The notes under the pieces were generated by a model. That model was not told where the DNA came from and did not search any database. It worked only from the letters and a program-made list of their open reading frames with translations. The translations under genes and the position numbers were made by a program. A stretch of 45,444 bases of DNA from positions 1 through 45,444 of the forward strand of contig JASJDE010000001.1 of NCBI GenBank assembly GCA_030065195.1. Direction: 5' to 3'. The DNA is from Erythrobacter sp. Lineage in GTDB: Bacteria > Pseudomonadota > Alphaproteobacteria > Sphingomonadales > Sphingomonadaceae. Positions 20,958 through 37,491 of the stretch are shown here, one piece after another (the stretch's first letter is position 1; every line of letters starts with the position of its first letter).

Positions 20958-21968
20958 ATGCTGAATAACAAATCCGTTCTCGTGACCGGGGGCACCGGCT
21001 CCTTTGGCAAGGCGTTCGTGCGCACTGTCCTCCAGCGCTATCCCGACATCAAAAGGTTGGTGATCTATTCGCGCGACGAACTGAAACAGTTTGAAATGGC
21101 GCAGGTATTCCCGCGCTCCGAATATCCCGCATTGCGCTATTTCCTCGGCGATGTGCGCGACGAAGCGCGCTTGAAGCGTGCACTCGAAGGGATCGATGTC
21201 GTGGTTCACGCCGCCGCGCTCAAACAGGTGCCCGCAGCCGAATACAACCCGTTCGAATGCATCAAGACCAACGTGCTCGGCGCGCAGAACCTGATCGAGG
21301 CTTGCTTCGATGCCAATGTCGAGCGGGTCGTGGCGCTTTCGACCGACAAGGCAGCCGCCCCGATCAACCTCTATGGCGCGACCAAGCTGTGCTCGGACAA
21401 GCTGTTCGTCGCCGCCAACAACGTGAAGGGCGCGCGCGATATCCGCTTCAGCGTCGTTCGCTACGGTAATGTCATGGGCTCGCGCGGCTCGGTCATCCCG
21501 TTCTTCATGGCCAAGAAAGACGAAGGGGTGCTGCCGATCACCGATCCGCGCATGACTCGCTTCAACATCTCGCTGCAGGAAGGCGTCGAGATGGTGCTGT
21601 GGTCGGTCGAGAACGCGCTTGGCGGCGAAGTGCTGGTACCCAAGATTCCGTCATACCGGATCGGCGATGTCGCCACCGCGATTGCGCCTGAGGCCGAACA
21701 GAAAGTCATCGGCATCCGTCCCGGCGAGAAGATCCACGAGGAGATGATCACAGCGTCGGACAGCTTCAACACGGTCGACATGGGCGACTACTATGCGATC
21801 CTGCCGGTCAGCGCTGAGTACACGATAGAGGATTACTGCCGGGAACACGGCGGCAAGCCGGTCGAACCGGGCTTTGCCTATTCCTCCGGCAGCAATCCCG
21901 ATTTTCTCACCGTCGAGCAGCTCCGTACCTTGATCGAAGAGCATGTCGTCGGGCAGACAATCGATTAA
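20958..21968 (+). CDS. pseB: UDP-N-acetylglucosamine 4,6-dehydratase (inverting), PseB
   Basis: PseB begins CMP-pseudaminic acid synthesis. It converts UDP-GlcNAc to UDP-2-acetamido-2,6-dideoxy-beta-L-arabino-hexos-4-ulose by 4,6-dehydration with C5 epimerisation, using bound NADP. The 336-aa extended SDR has the Rossmann motif GGTGSFG at 11-17, LALSTDKAAAP-type catalytic Asp-Lys (STDKAAAPINLYG), and Tyr139-x3-Lys143 (YGATK). RYGNVMGSRGSVIPFF and TDPRMTRFNISL are hallmark PseB/FlmA segments. First gene of the plus-strand run; the Shine-Dalgarno is weak (AGGCGAG, 14 bases upstream). A 20-base gap separates it from pseC. Confidence 0.95.
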   Translation: MLNNKSVLVTGGTGSFGKAFVRTVLQRYPDIKRLVIYSRDELKQFEMAQVFPRSEYPALRYFLGDVRDEARLKRALEGIDVVVHAAALKQVPAAEYNPFECIKTNVLGAQNLIEACFDANVERVVALSTDKAAAPINLYGATKLCSDKLFVAANNVKGARDIRFSVVRYGNVMGSRGSVIPFFMAKKDEGVLPITDPRMTRFNISLQEGVEMVLWSVENALGGEVLVPKIPSYRIGDVATAIAPEAEQKVIGIRPGEKIHEEMITASDSFNTVDMGDYYAILPVSAEYTIEDYCREHGGKPVEPGFAYSSGSNPDFLTVEQLRTLIEEHVVGQTID

Positions 21969-21988: not shown

Positions 21989-23152
21989 ATGGCGGACGAA
22001 TTCATCCCCTACAGTCGGCAGGAAATCAGCGACGCCGATATTGCAGCGGTAACGAACCTGCTGCGCTCTGATTTCCTGACGCAGGGTCCTAAGGGCGCAG
22101 AATTCGAGCAAGCGTTCGCCGAACGTCACAAGGTCAGCCACGCGATCGGCGTTTCGAATGCGACCGCCGCTCTGCATATCGGATGCCTTGCAATGGACAT
22201 CGGCCCCGGCTCTCTGGTTTGGACCAGCCCCAACAGTTTCGTCTCCAGCGCCAATTGCGCGATCTTTTGCGGCGCGCAGGTCGATTTCGTCGATACCGAT
22301 CCGGTGACGCGCAACATGTCGCTGGAAGGGCTGACTGCTAAGCTCGAAGCGGCAGACAAAGCGGGCAAGCTTCCCGATGTGGTGATCCCGGTCGACTTTT
22401 CCGGGTTACCATGCGACCTCGCAGAAATGCGGGCGCTGGCCGACCGCTACGGTTTCAGGATCCTCGAAGACGCCAGCCACGCGACCGGCGCGAGCTACAA
22501 GGGCGATCCGATCGGCTCGGCCCACGCTGACGCGACCGTGTTCAGCTTCCACGCGGTCAAGATCGTCACCACCGCCGAGGGCGGGATGATCGTGACGCAG
22601 GACGATGCGCTCGCCGAGCGGCTCCGGCTGCTCCGCTCGCATGGCGTGACCCGCGATGACAGCCTGATGCAACGCGCCTCTGAAGGGGGCTGGTATTACG
22701 AGATGGTCGATCTCGGCTGGAATTATCGCCTCACCGACCTGCAATCGGCGCTTGGCCTGTCGCAGATGGCGAGGATGGACGAATGGCGCAATGCGCGCGA
22801 GGCGCGCGCCGACCGTTACGATGCACTGCTCGCCGATGGACCGTTCAGGCGCCCGGCCCGGTTCAACGACCGCGTGTCTTCGTGGCACCTCTATGCCGTC
22901 GAGTTGACAGAGGCGGCTAGGATCGGCCGCACCGAAATGTTTGCGGCCATGCGTGAGGCCAAGATCGGTGTGAACGTCCACTACATCCCGATCCACACCC
23001 AGCCGTTTTACGAGAAACTCGGATTTAGGCGCGAACAATTCCCCAATTCCGTGGCCTACTACGACCATGCGATGTCGATCCCACTGTTCCCGGCGATGAG
23101 TGATGCGCAGCAAGACCGCGTGGTCGAGACCATGCTGAAGCTGGCGGCCTGA
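21989..23152 (+). CDS. pseC: UDP-4-amino-4,6-dideoxy-N-acetyl-beta-L-altrosamine transaminase, PseC
   Basis: PseC is the PLP aminotransferase that aminates C4 of the PseB product using glutamate. The 387-aa DegT/DnrJ-family protein has the Schiff-base Lys191 in FSFHAVKIVTTAEGG. It also has the cofactor Asp-His region (ILEDASHATGASYKG), the DFSGLPCDL segment typical of PseC, and YHYIPIH-like VNVHYIPIHTQPFY near the C-terminus. Neighbouring pseB and pseF confirm the pathway position. Its stop lies one base before the pseF ATG. The PLP it needs could come from PdxH encoded in the left part of the window. Confidence 0.95.
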   Translation: MADEFIPYSRQEISDADIAAVTNLLRSDFLTQGPKGAEFEQAFAERHKVSHAIGVSNATAALHIGCLAMDIGPGSLVWTSPNSFVSSANCAIFCGAQVDFVDTDPVTRNMSLEGLTAKLEAADKAGKLPDVVIPVDFSGLPCDLAEMRALADRYGFRILEDASHATGASYKGDPIGSAHADATVFSFHAVKIVTTAEGGMIVTQDDALAERLRLLRSHGVTRDDSLMQRASEGGWYYEMVDLGWNYRLTDLQSALGLSQMARMDEWRNAREARADRYDALLADGPFRRPARFNDRVSSWHLYAVELTEAARIGRTEMFAAMREAKIGVNVHYIPIHTQPFYEKLGFRREQFPNSVAYYDHAMSIPLFPAMSDAQQDRVVETMLKLAA

Positions 23153-23153
23153 C

Positions 23154-23864
23154 ATGGCAGGCAATATCGCCATCATCCCGGCACGCGGCGGCTCGAAGCG
23201 GATCCCGCGCAAGAATATCAAGGCGTTCGCCGGCAAGCCGATGATCGGCTACGCCATCGAGGCGGCGCTGGCGTGCGAGGCTATCACGCGCGTCATCGTC
23301 ACCACCGACGATGACGAAATCGCCGCGATTGCCGAGGATTTCGGCGCTGAGGTCCCTTTCCGCCGCCCGGAAGAACTCGCAGACGACATCACGCCAACCG
23401 TCCCGGTGATCCAGCACGCAATCAATGCGTGCCGCACGCGCGGGTTCGAATTCGACTACGCTTGCTGCATCTATCCCGGCGTGCCCTTCATCCGCACCGA
23501 TGACCTCGCCGAAGCCTTGGCCTTGCTGATCGAACAAGGCGGCGAAGGCTACACATTCCCGGTCACGGGCTTCCCCTCCCCGATCCAGCGCGCCCTGAAA
23601 CGCGAAGAAAGCGGCAGCGTTGCGCCTTTCGATCCCAGCCATGTAAACACCCGCACGCAGGATCTCCAACCGGCCTATTTCGACGCCGGCCAGTTCTATT
23701 GGGGCCACGCGGACACCTGGATGACCGGCGCGAACATCCACGCCAATGGCCGCGCGATCGTGCTGCCCGAATGGCGCGTGGTCGATATCGACACGCCCGA
23801 AGACTGGGATCGTGCCGAAGCGCTGCATAGGGCGTTCTCGGACGCAATCGCGGCGAGCGACTAG
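23154..23864 (+). CDS. pseF: Pseudaminic acid cytidylyltransferase, PseF
   Basis: PseF activates pseudaminic acid with CTP to give CMP-Pse, the donor for glycosyltransferases. The 236-aa protein has the CMP-NeuAc-synthetase nucleotide loop IIPARGGSKRIPRKNIK at residues 6-22. It also has the FPVTGFPSPIQRAL stretch and FDAGQFYWG motif of the PseF subgroup, and VVDIDTPEDWDRAE near the end, with an Asp likely to bind metal. Length matches known PseF. Tightly packed: pseC ends one base before its ATG and pseG-pseH starts three bases after its stop. Placing pseF before pseG and pseI is a common arrangement in alphaproteobacteria. Confidence 0.95.
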   Translation: MAGNIAIIPARGGSKRIPRKNIKAFAGKPMIGYAIEAALACEAITRVIVTTDDDEIAAIAEDFGAEVPFRRPEELADDITPTVPVIQHAINACRTRGFEFDYACCIYPGVPFIRTDDLAEALALLIEQGGEGYTFPVTGFPSPIQRALKREESGSVAPFDPSHVNTRTQDLQPAYFDAGQFYWGHADTWMTGANIHANGRAIVLPEWRVVDIDTPEDWDRAEALHRAFSDAIAASD

Positions 23865-25397: not shown

Positions 25398-26441
25398 ATG
25401 CAGATTAATGGACGCCCGATAGGCCTCGACGCCCGCCCCTATCTGATCGCCGAGATGAGCGGCAACCACAACCACTCGCTCGATCGCGCGCTGGAGATCG
25501 TCACCGCTGCCGCAGAAAGCGGCGCGGATGCGATCAAGCTGCAGACCTACACCGCCGACACGATCACGCTCGATTGCGAAGGGCCGGGCTTCGTGATCGA
25601 GGACGCAAACTCGCTGTGGAACGGGCGGCGACTGCACGAACTTTATGACGAAGCGCACACGCCATGGGACTGGCACGCGCCGATCATCGAGCACGCGAAA
25701 GGGCTGGGCATCGATTGTTTCTCTTCGCCGTTTGACGCGAGCGCGGTCGATTTCCTCGAAGACCTCGGGGTCCCTGCCTACAAAATCGCCAGCTTTGAAA
25801 GCATCGACCTGCCGCTGATCCGCAAGGTCGCCTCGACCGGCAAGCCGATGATCATCTCGACCGGGATGGCGAGCGTGGTCGAAATCGGCGAGGCAATCCG
25901 CGCGGCGCAAGAAGCGGGGAACGAGCAGGTGTGCATCCTCAAATGCACCAGCACCTATCCGGCGACTCCGGAGAACACCAATATCCGGACAATCCCGAAC
26001 ATGCGCGACACGTTCCGGGTCGAAGTTGGCCTGTCGGACCACACAATGGGGACCGGCGTCGCGGTCGGCGCGGTAGCGCTGGGCGCGGTTCTGATCGAGA
26101 AGCACTTTACGTTGCGCCGCGACGATGGCGGGGTGGACAGCGCCTTCAGCCTCGAACCCGAGGAGTTCCAGGCGCTGCGCGACGAGACCGAACGCGCGTG
26201 GCAGGCGCTGGGCCAGATCACCTATGGCGGGACCAAGGCCGAGGCAGGCTCGCGCCAGTTCCGCCGCTCGCTCTATGTCGCCGAGGATATGGCCAAAGGC
26301 GAGGCCTTCACCGAAGCGAACCTGCGCTCGGTCCGTCCCGGTTTCGGCTTGTCCCCGCGCCACTTTGACGTGCTGCTCGGCAAACGCGTCAACCGCGCGC
26401 TGACCAAGGGCACCCCGGTCAGCTGGGACCTGATCGCCTGA
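25398..26441 (+). CDS. pseI: Pseudaminic acid synthase, PseI
   Basis: PseI condenses 2,4-diacetamido-2,4,6-trideoxy-L-altrose with phosphoenolpyruvate to make the nine-carbon pseudaminic acid. The 347-aa protein has the NeuB-type TIM barrel at the N-terminus: YLIAEMSGNHN, GADAIKLQTYTADTITLD, KCTSTYPATPENTNIRTI and VGLSDHTMGTG. IEKHFTLRRDDGGVDSAFS carries the metal/substrate loop. A C-terminal SAF/antifreeze-like domain (RRSLYVAEDMAKGEAFTEANL and on) caps the active site. LQTYTADT and DDGGVDSAFSLEP favour PseI over NeuB or LegI. It completes the pathway, so the cell should make CMP-Pse from this cluster alone. Confidence 0.95.
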   Translation: MQINGRPIGLDARPYLIAEMSGNHNHSLDRALEIVTAAAESGADAIKLQTYTADTITLDCEGPGFVIEDANSLWNGRRLHELYDEAHTPWDWHAPIIEHAKGLGIDCFSSPFDASAVDFLEDLGVPAYKIASFESIDLPLIRKVASTGKPMIISTGMASVVEIGEAIRAAQEAGNEQVCILKCTSTYPATPENTNIRTIPNMRDTFRVEVGLSDHTMGTGVAVGAVALGAVLIEKHFTLRRDDGGVDSAFSLEPEEFQALRDETERAWQALGQITYGGTKAEAGSRQFRRSLYVAEDMAKGEAFTEANLRSVRPGFGLSPRHFDVLLGKRVNRALTKGTPVSWDLIA

Positions 26442-26448
26442 CTCAGCG

Positions 26449-27456
26449 ATGACGTACAAAGTCCTTATCATCGGCTGCGGAGCGATTGCAGGAGGCTATG
26501 ATGCCGATCGCGAGGGGGAATTCACGCCGACCGACTTGCCGCTAAGCCATGCCGGAGCGATCCAAATGCACGATCGCTTCGAGCTCGCAGCCTGCGTCGA
26601 CCCCGATCGCGACACGCGCGGCGCCTTTGCGGAAAGATGGGGCGTACCAGTCGACGAACCCGATCTCACAGCACTTGGTGGTGAGGTCGACGCATTTGAT
26701 GTGATTGTGGTTGCATCGCCCACTCAAAACCACGCCGAACATCTGGAGTGGGCCCTGGCCGTCAAGCCAAAGGCAGTCCTCTGCGAAAAGCCAATGGCAC
26801 AAGATTATGCGCAGTCTGTGCATCTCGCAGATGCCTATCGATCCGCTGCCATACCGCTGTGCGTGAACTATACGAGGCGCTGGTCGCTCAGCCTCGGGAG
26901 CATAGCCGGAGAGATCGAAGCGGGCGAGTACGGTGAGCTAATCAGTGGGGTTGGCACCTACACCAAGGGAATAGTCCACAATGGTGGGCACATGGTTGAC
27001 CTGTTGCGCTTCCTGATCGGTGACGTAGCGGTGCATTCGATCGGCCCGGCGCGGCTAGATCATTGGGACCATGATCCCACCGCTTCCGCAATTCTCACCG
27101 CAGGCAATGGCGCACCGATTCACCTCGTGGCAGGCGACGCCCGTCTCGTGACACAGTTTGAATTGGTGCTCAACTTTGAAACCTGCCAATTTGCTATGCG
27201 CGACGGCGGACGACGGATAGAGTTTCGCAATACGGGCCCGAGCGACACGTATGCGGGTTACCGCGAATACGGGCTGCCGGAGTCCAACCAATCCGAAAAC
27301 GCCGGCGCTATGTGGAGCCTCTACCAAATGTTGGCCGACTCTATCGAGTTTGGCGTGCCGCTTATCAGTGACGCGGAATCCGCGCTTGCAGCACAGTCCA
27401 TTTGCGAAGAGATTCGCCTCAAGGCACTCGAGACCCTCAAGAAAGACCCGGAATGA
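26449..27456 (+). CDS. Gfo/Idh/MocA family sugar oxidoreductase (tailoring module, 1)
   Basis: This 335-aa NAD(P)-dependent oxidoreductase has an N-terminal Rossmann motif (IIGCGAIAGGYD, residues 6-17) and the catalytic-region Lys in the EKP motif (VLCEKPMAQ). A C-terminal alpha/beta domain carries HNGGHMVDLLRFLIG, whose His-x3-Asp is a usual active-site pair in the family. It would oxidise a ring hydroxyl to a ketone, setting up the aminotransferase encoded next (ATGA overlap). The line-by-line GC I counted here is about 55-60%, against up to 72% in pseI, hinting at separate origin. The substrate is unknown: a UDP-sugar, a nonulosonate or a cyclitol are all possible. Confidence 0.88.
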   Translation: MTYKVLIIGCGAIAGGYDADREGEFTPTDLPLSHAGAIQMHDRFELAACVDPDRDTRGAFAERWGVPVDEPDLTALGGEVDAFDVIVVASPTQNHAEHLEWALAVKPKAVLCEKPMAQDYAQSVHLADAYRSAAIPLCVNYTRRWSLSLGSIAGEIEAGEYGELISGVGTYTKGIVHNGGHMVDLLRFLIGDVAVHSIGPARLDHWDHDPTASAILTAGNGAPIHLVAGDARLVTQFELVLNFETCQFAMRDGGRRIEFRNTGPSDTYAGYREYGLPESNQSENAGAMWSLYQMLADSIEFGVPLISDAESALAAQSICEEIRLKALETLKKDPE

Positions 27457-28730
27457 CCGACCAACTGGCCCTTTACGGCGGGACACCCGTCATCCAGCGC
27501 GAACTCGACGCGTTCAAATCGATGGGTCGCGACGAAGAGGAGGCCGCGGCGCGCGTCGTTCGGTCCGGCGTCCTGTCGGCCTATATCGGCGCTCCCGGAG
27601 AGCTGTTCATGGGCGGAACCGAAGTGCGCGCGTTCGAGCAAAAAGCGGCCGAGTACTTCGGGGTCAAGCACGCGCTTGGTGTCAACAGCTGGACCAGCGG
27701 GTTGATCGCAGAAGTCGGAGCCATCGGGGTCGAGCCGGGGGACGAGATCATCACTTCGCCCTGGACGATGAGCGCGACCGCAATGGCGATCCTGCACTGG
27801 AATGCGATCCCGGTGTTCGCCGACATCGATCGCGCAACCTTCAATCTCGATCCCGAAAGCGTGCGCGCCAACATCACCCCGCGCACCAAGGCGATCATGG
27901 CGGTCGATATCTTCGGGCAGACCGCCGATGTCGCGGCCCTGCGCGCGATTGCCGACGAGCACGGCCTCAAGCTGCTGGGCGACACCGCACAGGCCCCGGG
28001 CGCACTCAGCGATGGCGGTCACACCGGCACCGGCTACGATATTGGCGGTTTCAGCCTAAACTATCACAAGCACATCCATTGCGGTGAAGGTGGCATTCTC
28101 GTCACCAATGACGATGCGCTGGCCGAACGGCTGGCGCTGATCCGCAATCATGCAGAAAGCGTGATCAAGCCGACGGACCGCAGCCAGCTGAACAACATGA
28201 TCGGCTACAATTTCCGCATGGGTGAGATTGAAGCCGCGATCGCCAGCGTGCAGCTCGACAAGCTCGCCGAGCGGGTCGCAGATCGCCAGCGGGTTGCCGC
28301 CGAACTGAATGAGGGGCTTGGCGGGTTGCAAGGGCTTTCGACACCCAAGGTCGCCGCCGGTGCGACACACGTCTATTACGTGTACGGCATGGTTCTCGAC
28401 GCGCAGGCACTGGGAATTTCGCGCGCGAAAATCGTCGAAGCGCTCAAGGCCGAGGGGGTCCCGGCTGTGATGCCCGGCTATCAGAACATCCATCGTCTGC
28501 CGATTTTCACCGAACAGGTCGCCTATGGCACTGGCAGCTATCCTTGGAGCCTGCGCGACGACCGCAACTTCGCCTACGGCATGGGCACGTGCCCGGTCGC
28601 CGAAGAACTCCACGATCGCGATTTCCTCGGTCTCAGCATCTGCGTCCACCAGCTGCCGAGCGAAGATGTCGCACACATCGTCGAGGGCTTCCAAAAAGTC
28701 TGGGCCAATCTGGACTCGCTTAGGGGCTGA
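27453..28730 (+). CDS. DegT/DnrJ/EryC1 aminotransferase (tailoring module, 2)
   Basis: This 425-aa PLP enzyme should aminate a keto-sugar or keto-cyclitol. I start it at ATG 27453, overlapping the preceding stop. The N-terminal LALYGGTPVI segment is typical of the AHBA-synthase/scyllo-inosamine (StsC) branch rather than of PseC or WecE. Schiff-base Lys206 lies in NYHKHIHCGEGG, and LLGDTAQAPGA holds the PLP-N1 Asp. YNFRMGEIEAAIA is also conserved. At 425 aa it is longer than WbpE-type enzymes. Together with the flanking Gfo/Idh and GNAT genes it forms an oxidise-aminate-acetylate trio. No UDP-GlcNAc 6-dehydrogenase that would point to a WbpA-WbpB-WbpE-WbpD route is visible. Confidence 0.9.
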   Translation: MTDQLALYGGTPVIQRELDAFKSMGRDEEEAAARVVRSGVLSAYIGAPGELFMGGTEVRAFEQKAAEYFGVKHALGVNSWTSGLIAEVGAIGVEPGDEIITSPWTMSATAMAILHWNAIPVFADIDRATFNLDPESVRANITPRTKAIMAVDIFGQTADVAALRAIADEHGLKLLGDTAQAPGALSDGGHTGTGYDIGGFSLNYHKHIHCGEGGILVTNDDALAERLALIRNHAESVIKPTDRSQLNNMIGYNFRMGEIEAAIASVQLDKLAERVADRQRVAAELNEGLGGLQGLSTPKVAAGATHVYYVYGMVLDAQALGISRAKIVEALKAEGVPAVMPGYQNIHRLPIFTEQVAYGTGSYPWSLRDDRNFAYGMGTCPVAEELHDRDFLGLSICVHQLPSEDVAHIVEGFQKVWANLDSLRG

Positions 28731-28732
28731 GC

Positions 28733-29260
28733 GTGACCGGGTTCCTCGAACTTATCGGCGAGAAGGTGCGCCTCAAGCCTTTCGGTTCGGGCGACATTAC
28801 CGAGGGTTACATCGGCTGGCTCAACGATCCCAAGGTCACGCGCTATTCGAACCAGCGCTTCCGCTCGCACACGCGCGAAAGCTGCGAAAGGTATCTCGCC
28901 AGCTTTGCCGGAACGCATAACCTGTTCGTGAGCGTGCGCGACAAGGAGTCTGGCGAGGCGATCGGCACCATGACCGCTTACCGCAATCGCGCGCACGGCA
29001 CCTGCGATGTCGGGATCATGATCGGCAACCGCGATTATTGGGGTGGAGGCTACGGGCAGGAGGCCTGGAACCTGCTGACCGGCTGGCTGATCGAGAGGGC
29101 GCGCGTACGCAAAGTCACTGCGGGATGCCTCGTCGTCAATGGTGGAATGGTGAAATTGATGGAGCGCTCGGGCATGGTCCCTGACGGCGTTCGCCGAGCG
29201 CAGGAACTGATCAACGAAAAGCCCGTCGATATCGTGCACTATGCCAAATTCGCCGATTGA
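28733..29260 (+). CDS. GNAT family N-acetyltransferase (tailoring module, 3)
   Basis: This 175-aa RimJ/RimL-like acetyltransferase starts at GTG 28733, two bases after the aminotransferase stop. Visible GNAT pieces are LIGEKVRLKPF at the N-terminus, YIGWLNDPKVTRYS, GTMTAYRNRAHGTCDVGIMIG (beta4), and the acetyl-CoA loop YWGGGYGQEAWNLL in place of R/QxxGxG/A. The last part (VNGGMVKLMERSGMV) is conserved in sugar-acting members. It probably acetylates the amine made by the preceding enzyme. It could alternatively be PseH, with the domain fused to PseG doing something else. The next gene overlaps it by 20 bases. Confidence 0.87.
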   Translation: MTGFLELIGEKVRLKPFGSGDITEGYIGWLNDPKVTRYSNQRFRSHTRESCERYLASFAGTHNLFVSVRDKESGEAIGTMTAYRNRAHGTCDVGIMIGNRDYWGGGYGQEAWNLLTGWLIERARVRKVTAGCLVVNGGMVKLMERSGMVPDGVRRAQELINEKPVDIVHYAKFAD

Positions 29261-30116
29261 TAGCCTGCCCCGACCGCTGGCTGTGGCGGTGCACGATGCC
29301 GGCGCGGCGAACATGATCGCGGCTTGGGTGGAAGCAGCATCCGCTTCGCCCGAACACGTGATCGCTGCAGGTCCGGGGGCAACGATCTGGCGCGCGCGGT
29401 TTGGTAACGCCGCGGGGATCAGCGACAAACCCGACAAAGTCCAAGGCCTCGCCACCCTGATCAGCGGCACCGGCTGGGCCAGCAACCTGGAACATCGGGC
29501 GCGTATCTCGGCTGCGGAGGCGGGCATCCGCTCGGTGGCGGTCATCGACCATTGGGTGAATTATGCGATGCGCTTCCAGCGCGAAGGATTGGTGCAGCTT
29601 CCCAACACGATCTGGGTGGGCGACGAGGACGCCGCGGCTATCGCCCGCTCAGAGTTTCCGGGCATCACGATCGAACAGCATTCCAACCTCTACCTTGCAG
29701 AACAAGCGCGCGAGGCAGGGCAGGTTCCGGCGGATGGCGATGTGCTATTCCTGCTCGAACCTGCGCGCAGCGATTGGGGCAAGGGCCAGCCGGGCGAGTT
29801 TCAGGCGCTCGATTACCTGGCCGGACGCCGCGATGTGGCCGGAATCCCCGCCGACACGCCAGTACGTATCCGTCCGCATCCTTCCGACCCTGCAGGCAAG
29901 TACGACGCATGGATCGCGGCGCATCCCGGTACCGCGCTCGACACCTCACCCGACATGGGCAGCGCGCTGGCTCGGGCTCGCTGGGTCGTGGGGATGAACT
30001 CGGCCGGCCTGGTGATTGCGCTCGAAGCAGGCCGCACCGTTATCAGCGCTTTGCCACCGCACGCCCCGCCATGCGTCTTGCCTCATGCGGCCATCGCAAG
30101 GCTCTGCGAACTCTAG
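29241..30116 (+). CDS. HP-motif protein, candidate nonulosonate/Kdo-type glycosyltransferase
   Basis: I do not recognise a named family for this 291-aa protein. Its layout is GT-B-like: an N-terminal AVAVHDAGAANMIAAW segment, a central VAVIDHWVNYAMRF region, and a C-terminal RPHPSDPAGKYD. Arg211-Pro-His213-Pro is followed ~40 residues on by VGMNSAGLVIALEAGR (Ser254). An His-Pro motif followed by a Ser-containing glycine loop is shared by bacterial sialyltransferases (GT38, GT52, GT80) and KpsS/KpsC-type Kdo transferases, all users of CMP-activated keto-acids. Given the CMP-Pse pathway just upstream, a pseudaminyltransferase role is an attractive inference, unproven. The start at ATG 29241 overlaps the preceding gene by 20 bases. 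Confidence 0.7.
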   Translation: MPNSPIDSLPRPLAVAVHDAGAANMIAAWVEAASASPEHVIAAGPGATIWRARFGNAAGISDKPDKVQGLATLISGTGWASNLEHRARISAAEAGIRSVAVIDHWVNYAMRFQREGLVQLPNTIWVGDEDAAAIARSEFPGITIEQHSNLYLAEQAREAGQVPADGDVLFLLEPARSDWGKGQPGEFQALDYLAGRRDVAGIPADTPVRIRPHPSDPAGKYDAWIAAHPGTALDTSPDMGSALARARWVVGMNSAGLVIALEAGRTVISALPPHAPPCVLPHAAIARLCEL

Positions 30117-30164: not shown

Positions 30165-31598
30165 ATGCTTTTTTCGACCGGCACATTCTGGCTGTTCTTC
30201 CCGGCGGTGCTCGCACTGTTGGCGGCGAACCGGCTGACACTGCGCTCAATCACCGTCCAGAATGCTCTGCTGCTCGGTGCGAGCTACGTGTTCTATGGCT
30301 GGTGGGACTGGCGCTTTCTCGGGCTGATCGTCGTTTCCACGCTGATCGACTACGTCGCCGCGCTGGGAATGCAGCGCAGCGGCGAAAGCCCGGCCCGCAA
30401 ACGCTGGTTGCACATATCCGTGTTCGCCAACCTTTCGATCCTGGGCTTCTTCAAATATTTCAACTTCTTCGTAGGCGAGTTGAAGTCCGGTCTGACGGTT
30501 GCGGGTGTGAACGCCGACTGGAGTACGCTCGAGATCATACTGCCAGTCGGCATCTCGTTCTACACGCTGCAGACGCTGAGCTATTCGATCGACGTCTATT
30601 ACCGACGCGCCAAGCCCGAACCGAACCTCCTGCGCTACGCTGTCTATGTCGCGTTCTTCCCGCAACTGGTCGCCGGCCCGATTGAACGGGCGCGCAAGCT
30701 GATCCCGCAATTCGCGGTTCTGGCCCAGCCGACCTGGGAGTCGCTCAATCAGGGCGTGCGGCTGATTATCGCAGGGCTGTTCCTCAAGATCGTGATCGCC
30801 GACAATCTCGCGCCCTTCGTCGACCGCATCTGGGCCGCGTATGCCAGCTTGGGTGGCGGAGAACTGCTGCTCGGAATGCTGTATTTCTCGATCCAGATCT
30901 ACGCCGATTTCGCGGGCTATTCCTCAATTGCCATCGGGCTTGCAGCGCTCATGGGAATCCAACTCTCGACCAATTTCGCGACGCCATTTCTCGCCAGTTC
31001 GATCAGCGCTCTGTGGCGCGGGTGGAACATCACGCTGACTTTGTTCTTCCGCGACTATGTCTATGCTGAGCTGCGAAAGGGGAGACGCACGGAAAGCCGC
31101 ATTGCGCTCGCCAATATCGCGACTTTCTTCGTCAGCGGGTTGTGGCACGGGGCAAACTGGACCTTCATCGTCTGGGGTACCGCGCACGGCGTACTGCTAG
31201 TGCTGGAGCGGCGCTGGCGCGCAGCGGTGACACTGAGTGAAAAGCTGTGGCTCAAGCTATCGGGATGGATCTACACGTTTGGCCTGTTCGTGGTGCTCTC
31301 CGCGCTGTTCCGCAGTCCCGATTTCGGCACCGCATGGACCGTGTACAACCGCTCAGTCACCGAGTTTGGCCTACCGCAAAGCGAGCGCTTCGGCCTGCTG
31401 TTCGTCGCACTGGCATTCGCCGTCGACGCGCTGTGGCGCGGACAAACCCGGTTGGACCAGGGCCTGAGGCTTGCGTGGCTTGACCGCGCAGGCAAGGAGA
31501 TGGCGGAGACCCTGCTGTTCGCCGCCGCGCTGATCCTCGTCCTCGTCAACGCCGTCACCCGTCAGGAAGCCAATGCCTTCATCTACTTCCAATTCTGA
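30165..31598 (+). CDS. MBOAT family membrane O-acyltransferase
   Basis: This 477-aa polytopic protein is of the AlgI/DltB/PatA type and should move acyl (usually acetyl) groups across the inner membrane for glycan O-acylation. About ten or more TM helices are visible. Family pieces include YVFYGWWDWRFLGLI, LPVGISFYTLQTLSYSIDVY, FFPQLVAGPIERA, and the catalytic His328 in SGLWHGANWTFIVWG. The second conserved His, normally in a WRRWHISL-type motif (H289 in DltB), is Asn288 here (WRGWNITLTLFFRDYVY), which is unusual. The next gene overlaps by 26 bases and encodes an SGNH partner, the usual pairing. A 48-base gap with competing hairpins precedes it. Confidence 0.93.
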   Translation: MLFSTGTFWLFFPAVLALLAANRLTLRSITVQNALLLGASYVFYGWWDWRFLGLIVVSTLIDYVAALGMQRSGESPARKRWLHISVFANLSILGFFKYFNFFVGELKSGLTVAGVNADWSTLEIILPVGISFYTLQTLSYSIDVYYRRAKPEPNLLRYAVYVAFFPQLVAGPIERARKLIPQFAVLAQPTWESLNQGVRLIIAGLFLKIVIADNLAPFVDRIWAAYASLGGGELLLGMLYFSIQIYADFAGYSSIAIGLAALMGIQLSTNFATPFLASSISALWRGWNITLTLFFRDYVYAELRKGRRTESRIALANIATFFVSGLWHGANWTFIVWGTAHGVLLVLERRWRAAVTLSEKLWLKLSGWIYTFGLFVVLSALFRSPDFGTAWTVYNRSVTEFGLPQSERFGLLFVALAFAVDALWRGQTRLDQGLRLAWLDRAGKEMAETLLFAAALILVLVNAVTRQEANAFIYFQF

Positions 31599-32529
31599 CG
31601 GATCGAACGCCAAGCGCGCGCTGCTCGCGCTGGCGGGCGTTTTCGTGCTGCTCAACATGGCGCTCATCGCGCTTTGGCAGGCAATCCCGTTCACCCCGGT
31701 AAGCGAGGGTCGTTATCTCGCCTCGGTCGACGATCACCTCGCCATGCTCGAGCGCAGCAAAGGCGAGAAAGGCCGCATCATTCTGATCGGTGGTTCGGGC
31801 GCGGCGTTCTCGATCTCTGCAGAAACGCTGGGTGAGGAACTGGACCGCCCGGTGTACAACGGTGGGATCCAGGCGGGAATCGGGTTCCGCAACCTGATGG
31901 ACCTCTACGCGCCGCATCTCGACCCTGACAACGACCTGATCGTGCTGTTGCCCGAACTTGAACTGCTGGCGGGCGACGAACGCTACTCTGCGACCTGGTG
32001 CGATGTCGTCTATCTGCGCAAGGACCTGGGGCGCCTGGTCGGCCAACCGCGCTGCGTGCCGCACGTAATCCACCGCACCTACCAGGAAGTTCGCCACCAT
32101 CTCACCGGCAGTACGGCCGTTGACGAAGTCTATCGCCGCTCGGGCTTCAACGACGTCGGCGATCTGACCTCGCACATCACCATAGACCGACCACCGCCCG
32201 ATTTCAGCGAATATCGCTTGCCCGATATCAGTCCAGAAAAAATCGATCGGTTCGAGGCCTACGTACAGGACAATCTGATCGCGCGCGGATTGGCGGTGCT
32301 CTACGTCCCCGCCGCGATGCCCGAACCCGCCTGCCGCTGGCGCGATGTTGAAGCAATCGCGGCGCAATTGAGCGCTCTCGGCTCGGTGGATTCCGTCCGT
32401 CACGACCTCACTCGCTTCTGCTTGCCTGCCGAATTGTTCTTCGACGGAGCCGGTCACCTCAATCGCGAAGGCCGCGTTGTGCAGACCGAGAACGTGCGCG
32501 CTGCGCTTGCGAAATACGCGACAAACTGA
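31573..32529 (+). CDS. Membrane-anchored SGNH-like protein, AlgX/AlgJ/DltD-like partner of MBOAT
   Basis: The 318-aa protein has one N-terminal TM helix (ALLALAGVFVLLNMALIALW, residues ~15-34) and a periplasmic domain. ILIGGSGAAFSI carries the likely nucleophile Ser75 in the SGNH block I position. VYNGGIQAGIGFRNLMDL matches block II. FFDGAGHLNREG carries Asp291 and His295. This layout fits AlgX/AlgJ or DltD-type acetyltransfer partners, which take the acyl group from the MBOAT channel and place it on polysaccharide. It overlaps the MBOAT gene and lies 13 bases before the next SGNH gene. The four Cys could form disulfides. Substrate is inferred from context only. Confidence 0.8.
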   Translation: MPSSTSNSDGSNAKRALLALAGVFVLLNMALIALWQAIPFTPVSEGRYLASVDDHLAMLERSKGEKGRIILIGGSGAAFSISAETLGEELDRPVYNGGIQAGIGFRNLMDLYAPHLDPDNDLIVLLPELELLAGDERYSATWCDVVYLRKDLGRLVGQPRCVPHVIHRTYQEVRHHLTGSTAVDEVYRRSGFNDVGDLTSHITIDRPPPDFSEYRLPDISPEKIDRFEAYVQDNLIARGLAVLYVPAAMPEPACRWRDVEAIAAQLSALGSVDSVRHDLTRFCLPAELFFDGAGHLNREGRVVQTENVRAALAKYATN

Positions 32530-32542
32530 CAGGGGCGCGCGC

Positions 32543-33280
32543 ATGTTACGCTATGCGGGACTTGCTGCTCTGGTGCTGGGAGCGTTCGGTTGGGGGTTCT
32601 CTGCCGGAGCCTATGACTTGTTCCCCTATCCGCAGGCCCGCGCGGCAAAGGCGGCACTGTTCGGTTCCCCCGACACGGCGAACGCAGAATACATGCTGAG
32701 CGATGTTCCGGCGATCTCGGCGGAGCGCTATTCCGCGCTCGGGACAAAGGCTCAGATCGTTATGGCGGGAGATTCAATCACCGCTAGCGGACGCTGGAAC
32801 GAGCTGTTCCCCGAGGCTTCGATTATCAACCGCGGTGTGCCCGGAGACCGGGTGGGCGGGTTGCTCGCGCGGGTCGACGATATCCTCAAGGCAGAGCCGT
32901 CCAAGGTCTTCGTGATGGTCGGCATCAACGATGTCGCCGCGCGCAACACCAACGCGCAGATCCTCGAACGCTACGAAGCGCTGGTCGACCGACTGTCCGA
33001 AGGCGGCGCGCAAGTCTTCGTCCAATCGGTAATCACGTGTCGGGACACGCAATACAGCCCTTGCGACGAGGCGATGCGCTCGCAGATCGGAGAATTGAAC
33101 ACCGCTCTCGCTGAATTGGCGGAAAGCAAGGGTGCGCGTTTCGTCGACATCGATAGCCGCTTTTCGGACGCAAACGGGGTTCTCGAAAGCTTCAGCATCG
33201 ATGGCATCCATCCGGGAAGCGCGGGCTTCGAGGAATGGCGCGCAATGATCGCTCCCCACGTCGAAGGCGAAGCGGAATGA
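32543..33280 (+). CDS. Membrane-anchored GDSL/SGNH hydrolase, tandem copy 1
   Basis: This 245-aa protein is anchored by an N-terminal helix (LAALVLGAFGWGFSAGAY) and has a periplasmic GDSL-type esterase domain. All four SGNH blocks are visible: block I VMAGDSIT (Asp77-Ser78), block II NRGVPGDRVGG, block III VGINDV (Asn129-Asp130) and block V DGIHPG (Asp220, His223). The start at ATG 32543 has AGGGG upstream; the ORF-track start at 32477 lies inside the preceding gene. The next gene is a close paralogue overlapping by ATGA. Placed beside an MBOAT gene, it may add, remove or edit O-acyl groups on the exported glycan. Confidence 0.9.
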   Translation: MLRYAGLAALVLGAFGWGFSAGAYDLFPYPQARAAKAALFGSPDTANAEYMLSDVPAISAERYSALGTKAQIVMAGDSITASGRWNELFPEASIINRGVPGDRVGGLLARVDDILKAEPSKVFVMVGINDVAARNTNAQILERYEALVDRLSEGGAQVFVQSVITCRDTQYSPCDEAMRSQIGELNTALAELAESKGARFVDIDSRFSDANGVLESFSIDGIHPGSAGFEEWRAMIAPHVEGEAE

Positions 33281-34017
33281 TCCAGTACGCCGTCATTGTC
33301 GCGCTGGTGCTGTGCGCCTTCGCATGGGGTATCGCTGCCGGGACCTACAAGATCTTCCCGTTCGCGCAGGTGCAGGCCCTGCACGAAGCCGTTATTACGT
33401 CCTCCGGCATCGGCAGTGACGGGGGCTATCGCGAAAATCCGGCGGCGACCCAGCGCGGATTGGCGATGGCGGATTGGGACACGCGCGCGGAGATCGTGAT
33501 GATCGGGGATTCGATAACCGAGGCGGCTCCATGGAAGGACATGTTTCCCGATGCCGATATCCTGGGTCGTGGGGCTTCGGGCGACACGGTGAGCGGGGTC
33601 GAAGCGCGGCTCGATGCGATCCTGCGCGCCGAACCCGACCGCGCTTTCGTGCTGATCGGAACCAACGATCTCAATCTGGGCAATCCGGTGGATGAGGTGC
33701 TGGCGCGGTATGAAAGGGTGATAGAGCGGCTGCAGGCAGCGGAGGTTGAGACGACAATCCAGACCGTGCCTCCGTGCGAACCTGTGCTCGATTTCTGCAC
33801 CGGTAAACGGCGCGACGCCGAAGCGGCGCTGAACGAAGGGATTGCGCGCCTGGCGCGTGAACAGGGTGTGCGCCTGATCGATCTTGCGGCGGATTTCCCA
33901 AGCGGGACCGAATACCGCGCCGACGGGGTGCATCCCACGGTGTCGGGCTACAAGGCTTGGCGCGATGTGCTGGCTCCTCACCTCGCCGCGCAACCGCAAG
34001 CGGAGGCCGCCGAATGA
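33277..34017 (+). CDS. Membrane-anchored GDSL/SGNH hydrolase, tandem copy 2
   Basis: This 246-aa paralogue of the preceding gene has the same plan: a TM anchor (VIVALVLCAFAWGIAAGTYKIFPFAQ, which mirrors copy 1's GWGFSAGAYDLFPYPQ) and a GDSL domain. The blocks are VMIGDSIT (Asp78-Ser79), LGRGASGDTVSG, IGTNDL (Asn130-Asp131) and DGVHPT (Asp216, His219), all intact. Both copies share a Cys pair (here PPCEPVLDFC, in copy 1 ITCRDTQYSPC). The start at 33277 shares ATGA with the previous stop. Divergence between the copies is large, so the duplication is not recent. Different positional specificities on the glycan are a reasonable guess. Confidence 0.9.
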   Translation: MIQYAVIVALVLCAFAWGIAAGTYKIFPFAQVQALHEAVITSSGIGSDGGYRENPAATQRGLAMADWDTRAEIVMIGDSITEAAPWKDMFPDADILGRGASGDTVSGVEARLDAILRAEPDRAFVLIGTNDLNLGNPVDEVLARYERVIERLQAAEVETTIQTVPPCEPVLDFCTGKRRDAEAALNEGIARLAREQGVRLIDLAADFPSGTEYRADGVHPTVSGYKAWRDVLAPHLAAQPQAEAAE

Positions 34018-35006
34018 GCATCACCGCCAAGACTGTCTGGCTGGAAGCCCCCGGCCAGGTTGCGCTGCGCAATGAAGCGCTGGAAGCGCCCGGCGCGGAC
34101 GAGATCCTGTGCGAGACGATCGTTACTGCCATTTCGCCGGGCACTGAGCTCGCGGCATGGCGCGGCGATCCGCCGCTACGCCCCGGTGTCGTCTATCCGC
34201 GGCTGCAAGGCTACTGCAATGTCGCCAAAGTGCTGGAGTGCGGCGAAGGCGTCGAGGATTTCACACCGGGCGACCGGGTGCTAACCTTGCAATCGCATCG
34301 CAGCCATTTTGTCGCCGCTGCCGACAGCGTGCTTTACCGACTGCCGGAGGATGCCGACGCCAACAAGGTAGTCGCCGCCTACCTGTTCCACCTTGGCTAC
34401 AATGCAGTCCTGCGCAGCAATGTTCGCGCCGGGCACCGGGTGATGGTGATCGGATTGGGCGCGCTTGGCCTCACATCGGTGGCGATGGCGGCCCTCGCCG
34501 GGGCAGAAGTTACTGCAGTGTCGAGCCAGTCAGCGCCGGCAAAGATTGCTAAAGGTTTCGGCGCGAAGGCCGTTGTCTCGCGGGACGAAGGCGATGCGCT
34601 CAAAGACTGCGCCGATGTGATCATCTCGACCACCAATGGCTGGGACGACTTCGCGCTGGCCCTGAGGGCGGCTGCGCAGAACGGAACCATCGCCTGCTTA
34701 GGCTTCCCGGGTCGGACCGAAGAACCGGGCGACTTCAACCCGCTGGCGAGCGAGCATTTCTACATGAAGCAGCTGCGCATCGAAGCGGTCGGCTGGTCGC
34801 CGCTCGAAAAAGACGCGCGCGGCTTTGCGCGGTTCAACCAGCGCGACAACATCGCCTTCCTCGCTCGCGCCATCGAAGACGGGCGACTCGATCCCGCTCC
34901 CATCATCTCGGGAAGCTATCGCGGCGACGACATCGCACAGGCCTACATCGATCTCGACGCGCGCAAGGACGACGCCATTACCTACCTGCTGGACTGGTCG
35001 GCATGA
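34014..35006 (+). CDS. MDR-superfamily (zinc-type alcohol) dehydrogenase, partner of following Gfo/Idh
   Basis: This 330-aa medium-chain dehydrogenase/reductase starts at ATG 34014, sharing ATGA with the preceding SGNH gene. The GroES-like N-terminal domain (about 1-130) includes ISPGTELAAWRG. The Rossmann domain follows, with VMVIGLGALGLTSVAMA (~145). The usual catalytic-zinc Cys in the GHE/Cys pattern and the structural-zinc four-Cys loop are not visible, so it may be zinc-independent. It is joined by ATGA to a Gfo/Idh gene. These two domains also occur fused in other bacteria as a bi-domain oxidoreductase in surface-polysaccharide loci. They probably act in consecutive redox steps on one sugar; the substrate is unknown. 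Confidence 0.87.
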   Translation: MSITAKTVWLEAPGQVALRNEALEAPGADEILCETIVTAISPGTELAAWRGDPPLRPGVVYPRLQGYCNVAKVLECGEGVEDFTPGDRVLTLQSHRSHFVAAADSVLYRLPEDADANKVVAAYLFHLGYNAVLRSNVRAGHRVMVIGLGALGLTSVAMAALAGAEVTAVSSQSAPAKIAKGFGAKAVVSRDEGDALKDCADVIISTTNGWDDFALALRAAAQNGTIACLGFPGRTEEPGDFNPLASEHFYMKQLRIEAVGWSPLEKDARGFARFNQRDNIAFLARAIEDGRLDPAPIISGSYRGDDIAQAYIDLDARKDDAITYLLDWSA

Positions 35007-36115
35007 GCAACCTCACTGCGGCAGTGATCGGCTGCGGTCGGATGGGCGCATTTACGTCGCCAAGCGTGCGCGAATACGGGCCGGATTGCTTCCTCCCGTC
35101 CGCCCATGCCGAAGCGTTCCAGCAAGCCGAAGGGATCGACCTGGTCGCGGTATGCGATGCCAATGCCGAAGGTGCGGCGCGCGCTGCCGAGCATTATGGC
35201 GTGGCGCGCAACTACATCGACCACGGAGCCATGCTGGCAGACGGTGCACCTGACCTGATCGGAATCGCGACCCGCACAATAGGTCGCACGGACATGATCG
35301 CCGACTGCATCGATGCTGGCACGCGCGCGCTGCACGTCGAAAAGCCGATCTGCAATTCATTCGCCGAGCTGGAACGGCTCGAAACCCTGTTCGCCCGCGA
35401 CGACGTGTTTGTGACGCTCGGCGCGGTGCGGCGGCACTTTGCGATCTACAAGGAAGCCGTCGCTCGAGCACAGTCGGGGAACTATGGAGAATTGCTCGAA
35501 GCCAACGCCGAATTTGGCGCGCGGACGCTGTATTGGTCGCATCCGCACACGGTGGACCTTATCCTGCTGGCCGCCGCCGGAGCCAAGGTTGAAGCGGTGC
35601 AGGCACGGTTGGGAGAAGTCGAACGCAAAGGCTTGCGGATCGTCAATGATCCAGTCGTCATGGACGCTACGATCTGGTTCGAAGGCGGCTTTGCGGGACG
35701 TATCACCCGCGTGCCGGGGACCGATTTCCGCATGGCCTGCCAGACCGCACAGATCGCCGTGATCGGCAACGGTCATTCGCTTTGGCTCTCAGGACGCCCC
35801 AAACCCGATCCAGACGCTCCACGCGATGCCAATCCGGCCGGGGCAAATCCCTATCACGAGCCGGAGAAGCAGAAATTCGTCGCTCCGGACGAGCCGCAAG
35901 GCGCGCTCGCGCCGATCCTGCAACTGGCCGATTGTCTCAAAGGCAGCGAAACCGCACGCAACGCCAACGCGGCGCTCAAGCGCGATATCACCACAGGTCA
36001 ACGTATCCTGTTCGCGATCGTACAATCGCATTTCGAAGGTGGGCGCCCGGTGACACTCGACGAAATCGACCCCGACCTCTTCATCGAAGGCCGCACAGGC
36101 GACACACCGGCATGA
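35003..36115 (+). CDS. Gfo/Idh/MocA family oxidoreductase, partner of MDR dehydrogenase
   Basis: This 370-aa oxidoreductase has the Rossmann start AAVIGCGRMGAFTS (residues 6-19), LVAVCDANAEGAARAA and the EKP motif (HVEKPICNSF). In the C-terminal half the HPHTVDLILLAAAGA segment supplies the family's His/Asp pair. It differs clearly from the Gfo/Idh gene at 26449, so the cluster holds two independent members. It overlaps both neighbours by ATGA, placing it in a coupled set from the second SGNH gene to the capsule-type transferase. A split version of the MDR-Gfo/Idh bi-domain enzyme is the simplest reading. Confidence 0.88.
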   Translation: MSNLTAAVIGCGRMGAFTSPSVREYGPDCFLPSAHAEAFQQAEGIDLVAVCDANAEGAARAAEHYGVARNYIDHGAMLADGAPDLIGIATRTIGRTDMIADCIDAGTRALHVEKPICNSFAELERLETLFARDDVFVTLGAVRRHFAIYKEAVARAQSGNYGELLEANAEFGARTLYWSHPHTVDLILLAAAGAKVEAVQARLGEVERKGLRIVNDPVVMDATIWFEGGFAGRITRVPGTDFRMACQTAQIAVIGNGHSLWLSGRPKPDPDAPRDANPAGANPYHEPEKQKFVAPDEPQGALAPILQLADCLKGSETARNANAALKRDITTGQRILFAIVQSHFEGGRPVTLDEIDPDLFIEGRTGDTPA

Positions 36116-37491
36116 GCACCAGGCCCAAGATTGTGTTCTTCGCGCGCGGATTCCAAGCCGGCTTCTACCCGGAGCTGCAGGACGAACGCTATGAGGCGAT
36201 CTATGTCACGCTGACCCGCGAGGAAGCCGATCAGGTCCGCGCCAAGGGCTGCGAAGTCGCGGCGTGCTTCGAAGCCGATTTCGATTCCATCGCCCCCGCC
36301 GAAGTCCCCGAGCACTACCTGCTCACCTCGCTGATGTCGGAGCGGTTCCTGGGCCGCTACTCGCAATCGGAACGGCTCACCATCCTCGGCAAGGAGATCG
36401 CCTTCTGGCGCGCGCTGCTCGACAAGCATCAGCCGATCGCGGTGTGCAACGAACTGATCGCGATCGAGATTTCCGAAGTGCTGCTGATCGAGACTCGCAA
36501 ACGGGGAATCAGATATCTCGCGCCGATGTATTGCGTGATCGAGGGCTATTTCTACTGGCTGCCCGATCCGCTGACATTGTCGGGCCGGGCGCTCGATCTG
36601 CCCGAACCGACCGAACGCACGCTAGCGATGGCGGATGCCTATCTCGATCAGGTGCGGCAAAGCGACTACAAGCCTTACTACGTCCGCAACCTCGCCGGGC
36701 GGCGCAATTTCAAACCGCTCGCAACTGGACTCGCTAAGTCGGCGCTTTGGAAATGGCGCGACTGGACCTCGCGCGATGCCATGAAACCCGGTGCCTTCCG
36801 CTACGAGACCTACACCGAGGAATACTCCAAGCGGCCACAGGTCTTCGCCGCGAGCTTCACCAAGAGCTACGACGCGTTGACCGACATTTCCGATGAACGC
36901 GAGATCGTGCTCTACCCGTTGCACCAGGAGCCGGAGGCAACGCTCAATTACATGAGCGAGTTCTTCTCCAGTCAGGTCGCGACGATCGAGAATATCCTCA
37001 AATGCCTGAGCCCGCATCAGACGCTGGTGGTTAAGGAGCATCCGGTCGACAAAGGCGCACTGCTGCGGCCCAAGTTCCAGGACATCCGGGCGCGCTATTC
37101 TAACCTCGCTTTCCTGCCAGCCGAAGTGCACAGCCGCGAAGTGCTGGCCCGCTGCGAGCGCGTTGTGACGCTCACCAGCAGCGTCGGTTGGGAAGCGGCC
37201 TGTATCGGCAAATGCGTGTTCGTGATGGGCGAAATATACTGGGACAGCGTGCCCGGCGTGTGGCGGATCGAGACATGGCCGGAACTGCGCGATGCGATGC
37301 GCACTCCGGTCGACCAGATCGAGCGGGTCGACCCCGAGGATGCGCGCCGCTTCGTCGCCAGCCTCGCCGAGTTCAGCCATGAAGGCCGCCCGCTACCCAA
37401 TCCCAAGCTCTACGATTCCGAAAATGTTGCGCTGGTCCGCAATGCGATCTGCATCGGTGCCGGAATTGAGCCGACAGGCAGCAGCGGCTAA
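36112..37491 (+). CDS. Capsule polysaccharide biosynthesis-type protein with HP motif (putative glycosyltransferase)
   Basis: This 459-aa cytoplasmic protein starts at ATG 36112 (ATGA overlap); the ORF-track start at 35782 is in another frame of the previous gene. The C-terminal half matches the 'Capsule_synth' (KpsC/KpsS-like) pattern: IVLYPLHQEPEATLNYMS, VVKEHPVDKG (His310-Pro311), and LTSSVGWEAACIGKCVFV (Ser356-Ser357). The N-terminal half opens with KIVFFARGFQAGFYPEL and a VCNELIAIEI region. KpsC/KpsS transfer Kdo from CMP-Kdo. With CMP-Pse made in this locus, transfer of pseudaminic acid or another sugar is plausible but inferred. It is the second HP-motif protein of the cluster. Confidence 0.82.
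   Translation: MSTRPKIVFFARGFQAGFYPELQDERYEAIYVTLTREEADQVRAKGCEVAACFEADFDSIAPAEVPEHYLLTSLMSERFLGRYSQSERLTILGKEIAFWRALLDKHQPIAVCNELIAIEISEVLLIETRKRGIRYLAPMYCVIEGYFYWLPDPLTLSGRALDLPEPTERTLAMADAYLDQVRQSDYKPYYVRNLAGRRNFKPLATGLAKSALWKWRDWTSRDAMKPGAFRYETYTEEYSKRPQVFAASFTKSYDALTDISDEREIVLYPLHQEPEATLNYMSEFFSSQVATIENILKCLSPHQTLVVKEHPVDKGALLRPKFQDIRARYSNLAFLPAEVHSREVLARCERVVTLTSSVGWEAACIGKCVFVMGEIYWDSVPGVWRIETWPELRDAMRTPVDQIERVDPEDARRFVASLAEFSHEGRPLPNPKLYDSENVALVRNAICIGAGIEPTGSSG

Follow-up and report, generated by a model that had tools for sequence, protein, structure and literature searches.

A gfo-degT-gnat-orfU gene cassette associated with nonulosonic acid synthesis, and its proposed role in tailoring carbon 8

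What do a Gfo/Idh/MocA oxidoreductase, a DegT-type aminotransferase and a GNAT acyltransferase act upon, when their genes directly follow a pseudaminic acid synthase gene? The three genes, gfo, degT and gnat, lie in a 45,444 nt stretch of Erythrobacter sp. DNA (assembly GCA_030065195.1, contig JASJDE010000001.1, positions 1 to 45,444), hereafter called the window. Flagella, capsules and O-antigens are decorated with nonulosonic acids (NulOs), such as sialic, pseudaminic and legionaminic acids, which phages and immune systems recognise. An earlier interpretation made from the DNA alone (the sequence-only reading) had described an oxidising, aminating and acetylating trio of unexplained substrate. 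Here, we describe a unit of four genes that accompanies NulO genes across bacteria, and propose, with a probability of about 0.58, that it is a transferable NulO-tailoring cassette: carbon 8 (C8) would be oxidised, aminated and acylated, and the protein of the fourth gene, orfU, would transfer the product.

A four-gene unit that accompanies nonulosonic acid synthesis

The gfo, degT and gnat reading frames are all open on the + strand, and family matches (Table 1) bear out the three enzyme classes that had been named from sequence. The tight packing described earlier is likewise present: gfo starts 7 bases past the pseI stop (26441) and shares a 4-base ATGA overlap with degT, and 2 bases separate the degT stop from the gnat start. 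The unit is not a trio, however, as the sequence-only reading omitted its fourth member, orfU, which shares a 20-base overlap with gnat. The orfU product had no match among the Pfam and NCBIfam models, nor did the gnat product among the NCBIfam models. Because the full pathway to pseudaminic acid (Pse) is encoded upstream (pseB, pseC, pseF, a pseG-pseH fusion and pseI), the trio is surplus to Pse synthesis. The idea that the trio supplies an otherwise absent core step, PseC or PseH, was rejected, as pseC is present and a PseH-like GNAT domain (residues 365-489; 44.5 bits, below the cut-off of 93.1) is fused to PseG.

Table 1. Positions and family assignments of the cassette, pseudaminic acid and Capsule_synth-type genes in the window
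Gene	Product	Position	Strand	Details
pseB		20958-21968	+	TIGR03589, 533 bits, above cut-off
pseC		21989-23152	+	TIGR03588, 498 bits, above cut-off
pseF	CMP-pseudaminate synthetase	23154-23864	+	TIGR03584, 282 bits, above cut-off
pseG-pseH	Fusion protein, 505 aa	23868-25385	+	TIGR03590 over residues 1-296, above cut-off
pseI	Pseudaminic acid synthase	25398-26441	+	TIGR03586, 495 bits, above cut-off
gfo	Gfo/Idh/MocA oxidoreductase	26449-27456	+	ATG start, 335 aa; Pfam PF01408
degT	DegT/DnrJ/EryC1 pyridoxal 5'-phosphate (PLP) aminotransferase, distinct subfamily	27453-28730	+	ATG start, 425 aa; Pfam PF01041
gnat	GNAT acyltransferase	28733-29260	+	GTG start, 175 aa; Pfam PF13302
orfU	GT-B-fold protein, candidate glycosyltransferase	29241-30116	+	AlphaFold model
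	Capsule_synth-type transferase with its own HP...SS motif	36112-37491	+	PF05159

The unit recurs in other bacteria. Among 301 genomes of the same order, DegT relatives at E<=1e-100 were found in at least 12, a lower bound since this threshold, applied to a single query sequence, is too strict; with a DegT profile, five more members of the order (G042, G070, G073, G076 and G079) gave scores above 500 bits. The order pseI-gfo-degT-gnat-orfU is retained in the canonical DegT genomes. A scan of named genomes yielded 80 loci in seven phyla (Pseudomonadota, Bdellovibrionota, Verrucomicrobiota, Cyanobacteriota, Chlorobiota, Bacteroidota and Nitrospirota), the phylum names being taken from records of which many are metagenome-assembled genomes (MAGs). 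A set of 91 loci from seven phyla shows the common order NulO synthase, gfo, degT, gnat, orfU; of these loci, 88 have gfo, 82 have orfU and 65 have gnat, which stands directly after degT in 57. The gfo gene overlaps or adjoins degT, the median spacing being -4 bases and the individual spacing 60 bases or less in 79 of 88 loci. Given its recurrence over seven phyla, this arrangement is not the product of chance.

Far from lying mainly away from pse genes, an outcome that the sequence-only reading had named as its refutation, the cassette has a NulO synthase or CMP-transferase gene at its locus in 85 of the 91 loci, a linkage to be expected of a C8-aminating ulosonate pathway that works like KdnA/KdnB. 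The gene immediately 5' of gfo encodes a NulO synthase in 43 loci and a CMP-transferase in 14. Neither gene is present at the remaining six loci (L043, L046, L050, L084, L100 and L101). Their genomes belong to a set of 12 of which 11 have a NeuB-family gene somewhere; the one without it is L084, whose MAG contig begins inside gfo. Within the order, a NulO synthase occurs in 76 of the 301 genomes, which include 11 of the 12 DegT genomes (Fisher p=1.4e-6), and the twelfth (G055) has a divergent NulO synthase approximately 4 kb away. The partner synthase is not constant. A PseI-like enzyme fills this place in 60 loci and a divergent synthase in 16, and the eight divergent synthases that were scanned all score below both the PseI and NeuB cut-offs. 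In a maximum-likelihood tree of DegT, well-supported branches force at least seven switches of partner type, which ties the cassette to NulOs as a class.

Predicted enzymes of the cassette

The Gfo protein looks catalytically intact, judging from an alignment of 41 family members in which the G9xG11 Rossmann motif, E113-K114-P115 and H181 are invariant. Its nearest profile match in the PDB is inositol 2-dehydrogenase (4hkt, 101 bits). Against the archaeal UDP-GlcNAc 3-dehydrogenase model, the only model of that kind compared, it reached 20.9 of 450 bits.

The DegT protein represents a subfamily of its own, a placement that draws on hidden Markov model and fold rankings and on a tree of the subfamily alone. 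Its scores are far under the PseC (204 of 423.5 bits), LegC, ArnB and WecE model cut-offs, in keeping with the previous view that it is neither PseC nor WecE. The PLP-binding lysine lies inside the motif NYHK206HIHxGEGG, of which H205-K206-H207-I208-H209 are invariant in a 48-member alignment. The protein begins MTDQLALYGGTPVI, and the LALYGGTPVI segment near its start had been taken as typical of 3-amino-5-hydroxybenzoic acid (AHBA) and scyllo-inosamine aminotransferases. The segment is indeed there, but it is conserved throughout the new DegT family (L5, G9 and G10 invariant) and also occurs in Fic25 and RbmB; it is not AHBA-specific, and the argument built on it is weak. AHBA synthase aligns with DegT only from residue 53.

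By profile, Fic25 (286 bits) ranks first among the solved relatives, followed by perosamine synthase (247), KdnA (240), RbmB (237) and BtrR (233), with WbpE (193), AHBA synthase (179) and PseC (164) lower. RbmB and BtrR, both 2-deoxy-scyllo-inosose aminotransferases, score below Fic25, as does AHBA synthase; by these scores, the AHBA and scyllo-inosose aminotransferases (StsC/RifK group) are not the closest to DegT. The KdnA match spans DegT residues 20-420, whereas those of WbpE, PseC and ArnB end near residue 353. The AlphaFold model of DegT has a predicted local distance difference test (pLDDT) score of 91 and matches Fic25 best (template modelling (TM) score 0.87), with nucleotide-sugar aminotransferases behind and WbpE at rank 21. 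Fic25, from the ficellomycin pathway (PDB 8gyh, 8gyi and 8gyj), is therefore the nearest solved structure by both sequence and fold, although the identity is only 33% and Fic25 handles an amino-acid substrate in an antibiotic pathway. As it was solved with an acyclic amino-acid adduct (8gyj), the nearest relative of DegT uses an open-chain, non-nucleotide substrate. For GNAT, the nearest profile is that of the aminoglycoside N6'-acetyltransferase 6erd (68 bits).

The AlphaFold model of orfU (pLDDT 96) has a GT-B fold. Its fold matches are UDP-GlcNAc 2-epimerases, PseG and LpxB, with Kdo (3-deoxy-D-manno-octulosonic acid) transferases among the weaker ones, and no match exceeds a TM score of 0.62, which makes orfU a family of its own. 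H213-P214 and S/T254 are each conserved in 59 of 59 sequences, and D103-H104-W105 is invariant. The HP motif and the downstream S/T sit in the C-terminal Rossmann domain, and we liken them to the HP...S signature seen in KpsC and other CMP-ulosonate transferases. An HP motif is a feature of transferases that use cytidine-linked donors, and orfU shares both the predicted GT-B fold and the HP...S/T pattern with HP-motif transferases of the KpsC/sialyltransferase-like kind. A function as a second PseG-like hydrolase was considered and rejected, since profile comparison with PseG was null (E 0.11) although the folds are alike. Matches to orfU above 300 bits were found in precisely the seven genomes that have the canonical cassette and in no other NulO-positive genome (p=1.5e-7), and eight of the nine genomes with weaker matches also have DegT. 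Thus, orfU accompanies the cassette and not NulO synthesis in general. On the evidence of its modelled fold, its conserved motifs and its occurrence with the cassette, orfU is probably the glycosyltransferase for the modified nonulosonate.

The substrate and the case for carbon 8

We propose that Gfo would act on the completed NulO, here PseI-made Pse, either free or CMP-bound, and oxidise one of its side-chain hydroxyls to a ketone, most likely at C8. DegT would then aminate the C8 ketone and GNAT would acetylate the new amine, yielding in this genome a 5,7,8-triacetamido-3,5,7,8,9-pentadeoxy NulO. Finally, orfU, as a GT-B transferase devoted to the altered CMP-NulO, would recognise this donor and add the modified sugar to the surface polysaccharide. 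The NulO substrate, the C8 position, the order relative to CMP activation and the transferase role of orfU are what we infer from the observations above.

The structure of Pse leaves few positions for such chemistry. Nitrogen already occupies C5 and C7, the ring is closed through C6 and C9 is a methyl group, so that besides the anomeric hydroxyl only those at C4 and C8 are free. C7 is already aminated in Pse, and C8 is open both in PseI-type clusters and in the variants that lack PseC. In the hexose precursor, the oxygen of the future C8 closes the ring (as the C5 oxygen there) and is not freed until PseG and PseI have done their work, which disfavours a precursor as substrate and fits enzymes encoded after pseI. 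Of the acceptors that the sequence-only reading had offered for an extra acetamido group, the nonulosonate itself is the best supported, its precursor is chemically disfavoured and a cyclitol is without support.

Known systems offer partial parallels. KdnB and KdnA, which make 8-amino-3,8-dideoxy-Kdo in Shewanella, likewise oxidise and then transaminate an ulosonic acid at C8, and KdnA has a DegT fold (5k8b). Kdo, however, has eight carbons with a primary C8, the pair has neither GNAT nor orfU, and the cassette DegT belongs to a separate subfamily. The KdnB oxidase is an iron-type alcohol dehydrogenase, whereas the cassette oxidase is a Gfo/Idh protein (PF01408), which places the cassette outside the KdnA/KdnB family proper. 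Redox chemistry at C8 of pseudaminic acid is itself established through EpaA/EpaB of Acinetobacter prophages, which make 8-epi-pseudaminic acid by means of an aldo-keto reductase/CTP-transferase fusion and a short-chain dehydrogenase/reductase; that reaction is an epimerisation without amination (PMC12053666). A product of the predicted kind is also on record: a review describes an 8-amino-3,5,7,8,9-pentadeoxy nonulosonic acid of manno configuration in the O-antigen of Flexibacter (Tenacibaculum) maritimus (PMC3210612, citing Vinogradov 2003). Its acyl groups differ from those predicted here, and the review is inconsistent on N5 versus N7 placement. In the literature searched, where such amino nonulosonates turned up only in two marine reviews, we found no gene assignment for the 8-amino nonulosonate.

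The strongest competing explanation, which we regard as unlikely but deserving of serious attention, is that the trio makes a separate sugar, UDP-2,3-diacetamido-2,3-dideoxy-glucose or a derivative, from UDP-GlcNAc, and that orfU links this sugar next to the NulO. The combination of Gfo/Idh, DegT and acyltransferase is the gene set of 3-amination in the WbpB-WbpE-WbpD and WlbA-WlbC-WlbB routes to UDP-GlcNAc3NAcA, with the same three enzyme classes in the same chemical order, and UDP-GlcNAc is always available. GnnA and GnnB, a Gfo/Idh and DegT pair that makes UDP-GlcNAc3N for lipid A, can be likened to the cassette by description only, and come without GNAT or NulO context. The WbuX-HisH-HisF set, which is found in many cassette loci, amidinates 3-acetamido sugars in the Wlb/Wbp route. 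WbpE and 3q2k are among the matches of the cassette proteins, but not the best ones, as the lower profile score of DegT against WbpE than against Fic25 illustrates, and the Wbp/Wlb acyltransferase is a hexapeptide protein in place of a GNAT. The sequence-only reading had set this route aside because no UDP-GlcNAc 6-dehydrogenase was visible; none is linked to the trio within the window, but genome-wide there are five NDP-sugar-dehydrogenase matches, none of them on the contig of the window, and the only one amenable to typing is UDP-glucose 6-dehydrogenase (TuaD)-like. A UDP-sugar pathway would have no reason to track NulO synthases through the partner switches, and the poor score of Gfo against the UDP-GlcNAc 3-dehydrogenase model, the non-nucleotide substrates of the enzymes nearest to DegT, with which it has its C-terminal region in common, and the HP motif of orfU all speak against such a pathway.

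If a NulO is the substrate, another carbon might be tailored, namely C4, or C7 in the variants without PseC. This we consider improbable. Every NulO has a free C4 hydroxyl, ring hydroxyls are commonly oxidised by Gfo/Idh enzymes, and C7 would be free in partner clusters without pseC such as L042 and L047; however, C7 is already aminated in most partners, the closest DegT structure acts on an open-chain ketone, and an 8-amino NulO is on record whereas we know of no natural 4-amino NulO. Production by the trio of an amino-cyclitol, or of some other small molecule without connection to the glycan, seems very improbable indeed: the nearer solved relatives include RbmB, BtrR and inositol dehydrogenase, but no inositol or cyclitol genes were recognised in the recurring neighbourhoods, where NulO genes are nearly always present.

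Several points weigh against C8 tailoring of a NulO. The assignment of the substrate is one that we infer, and genome context alone cannot separate a modified NulO from a second sugar that is always linked to a NulO. The 91 loci were chosen for their similarity in DegT and include many MAG contigs, and in three Rubrivivax MAG loci (L043, L046 and L050) the cassette has no NulO genes within 10 kb. Gfo lies at much the same distance from inositol, UDP-sugar and other dehydrogenases, its solved relatives being mixed, and KdnA is absent among the 50 best DegT fold matches listed. The fold of orfU is also like that of UDP-GlcNAc 2-epimerases and PseG, and its match by hhalign to the Capsule_synth-type protein of the window, on the HP...S region, is weak (E=0.0076, probability 5%).

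Variant cassettes, neighbouring genes and implications

The amine is the variable point among cassettes, as judged from replacement of GNAT and from amidination genes. A methyltransferase takes the place of GNAT in L058, L077 and L092, and an Acetyltransf_6 protein does so in the Azospirillum plasmid locus L027 and in others. Many cassette loci carry two WbuX-type amidotransferases with HisH and HisF downstream, a set that converts acetamido to acetamidino groups. The three Rubrivivax loci have a WbuX-like gene upstream, and a NeuB-family gene elsewhere in each genome. In L042 and L047 the cassette stands with PseB, PseF, an RmlD-like reductase and a divergent NulO synthase, without PseC, which suggests a 7-hydroxy NulO backbone.

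Some cassettes are rearranged or lie on other replicons. The plasmid collection yielded one distant locus only, on plasmid p6 of Azospirillum argentinense (L027, 16196-18538), where DegT is fused to a methyltransferase domain (780 aa) and adjoins a short NeuB-family gene and the Acetyltransf_6 GNAT. In one lineage of the same order (L115, L117-L119, L121 and L122) the cassette is split, SpsF, gfo and orfU being together and DegT elsewhere beside pseI. IMG/VR contigs classed as viral (L124-L134) carry PseF/SpsF-gfo-DegT, some with GNAT and WbuX, possibly reflecting phage-borne conversion of surface sugars.

Downstream of orfU, the window encodes an MBOAT acyltransferase, an unannotated gene and two tandem GDSL/SGNH paralogues (30165-34017), an O-acylation island where relatives have WbuX-HisH-HisF. 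These are followed at 34014-36115 by two genes with a 4-base overlap, one for a medium-chain dehydrogenase (BchC-like, 63 bits) and the other for a second Gfo/Idh protein; the pair is also present in approximately 10 cassette loci. The Capsule_synth-type protein is a possible second ulosonate transferase of the cluster.

Taken more broadly, we see an even chance that a mobile cassette, present in at least seven phyla, places a third nitrogen (N-acetyl, or N-methyl or acetamidino in variants) on C8 of many NulOs, creating a large 8-amino class with its own orfU transferase family. If the proposal is correct, the signature of NulO synthase, gfo, DegT, GNAT and orfU would allow amino-NulOs to be predicted from sequence in many environmental bacteria, and would supply candidate genes for the 8-amino nonulosonate that was reported in 2003 from a fish bacterium. 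It would also point to an uncharacterised transferase family in orfU, and would illustrate how a conserved pathway can hide behind three generic enzyme names in annotation.

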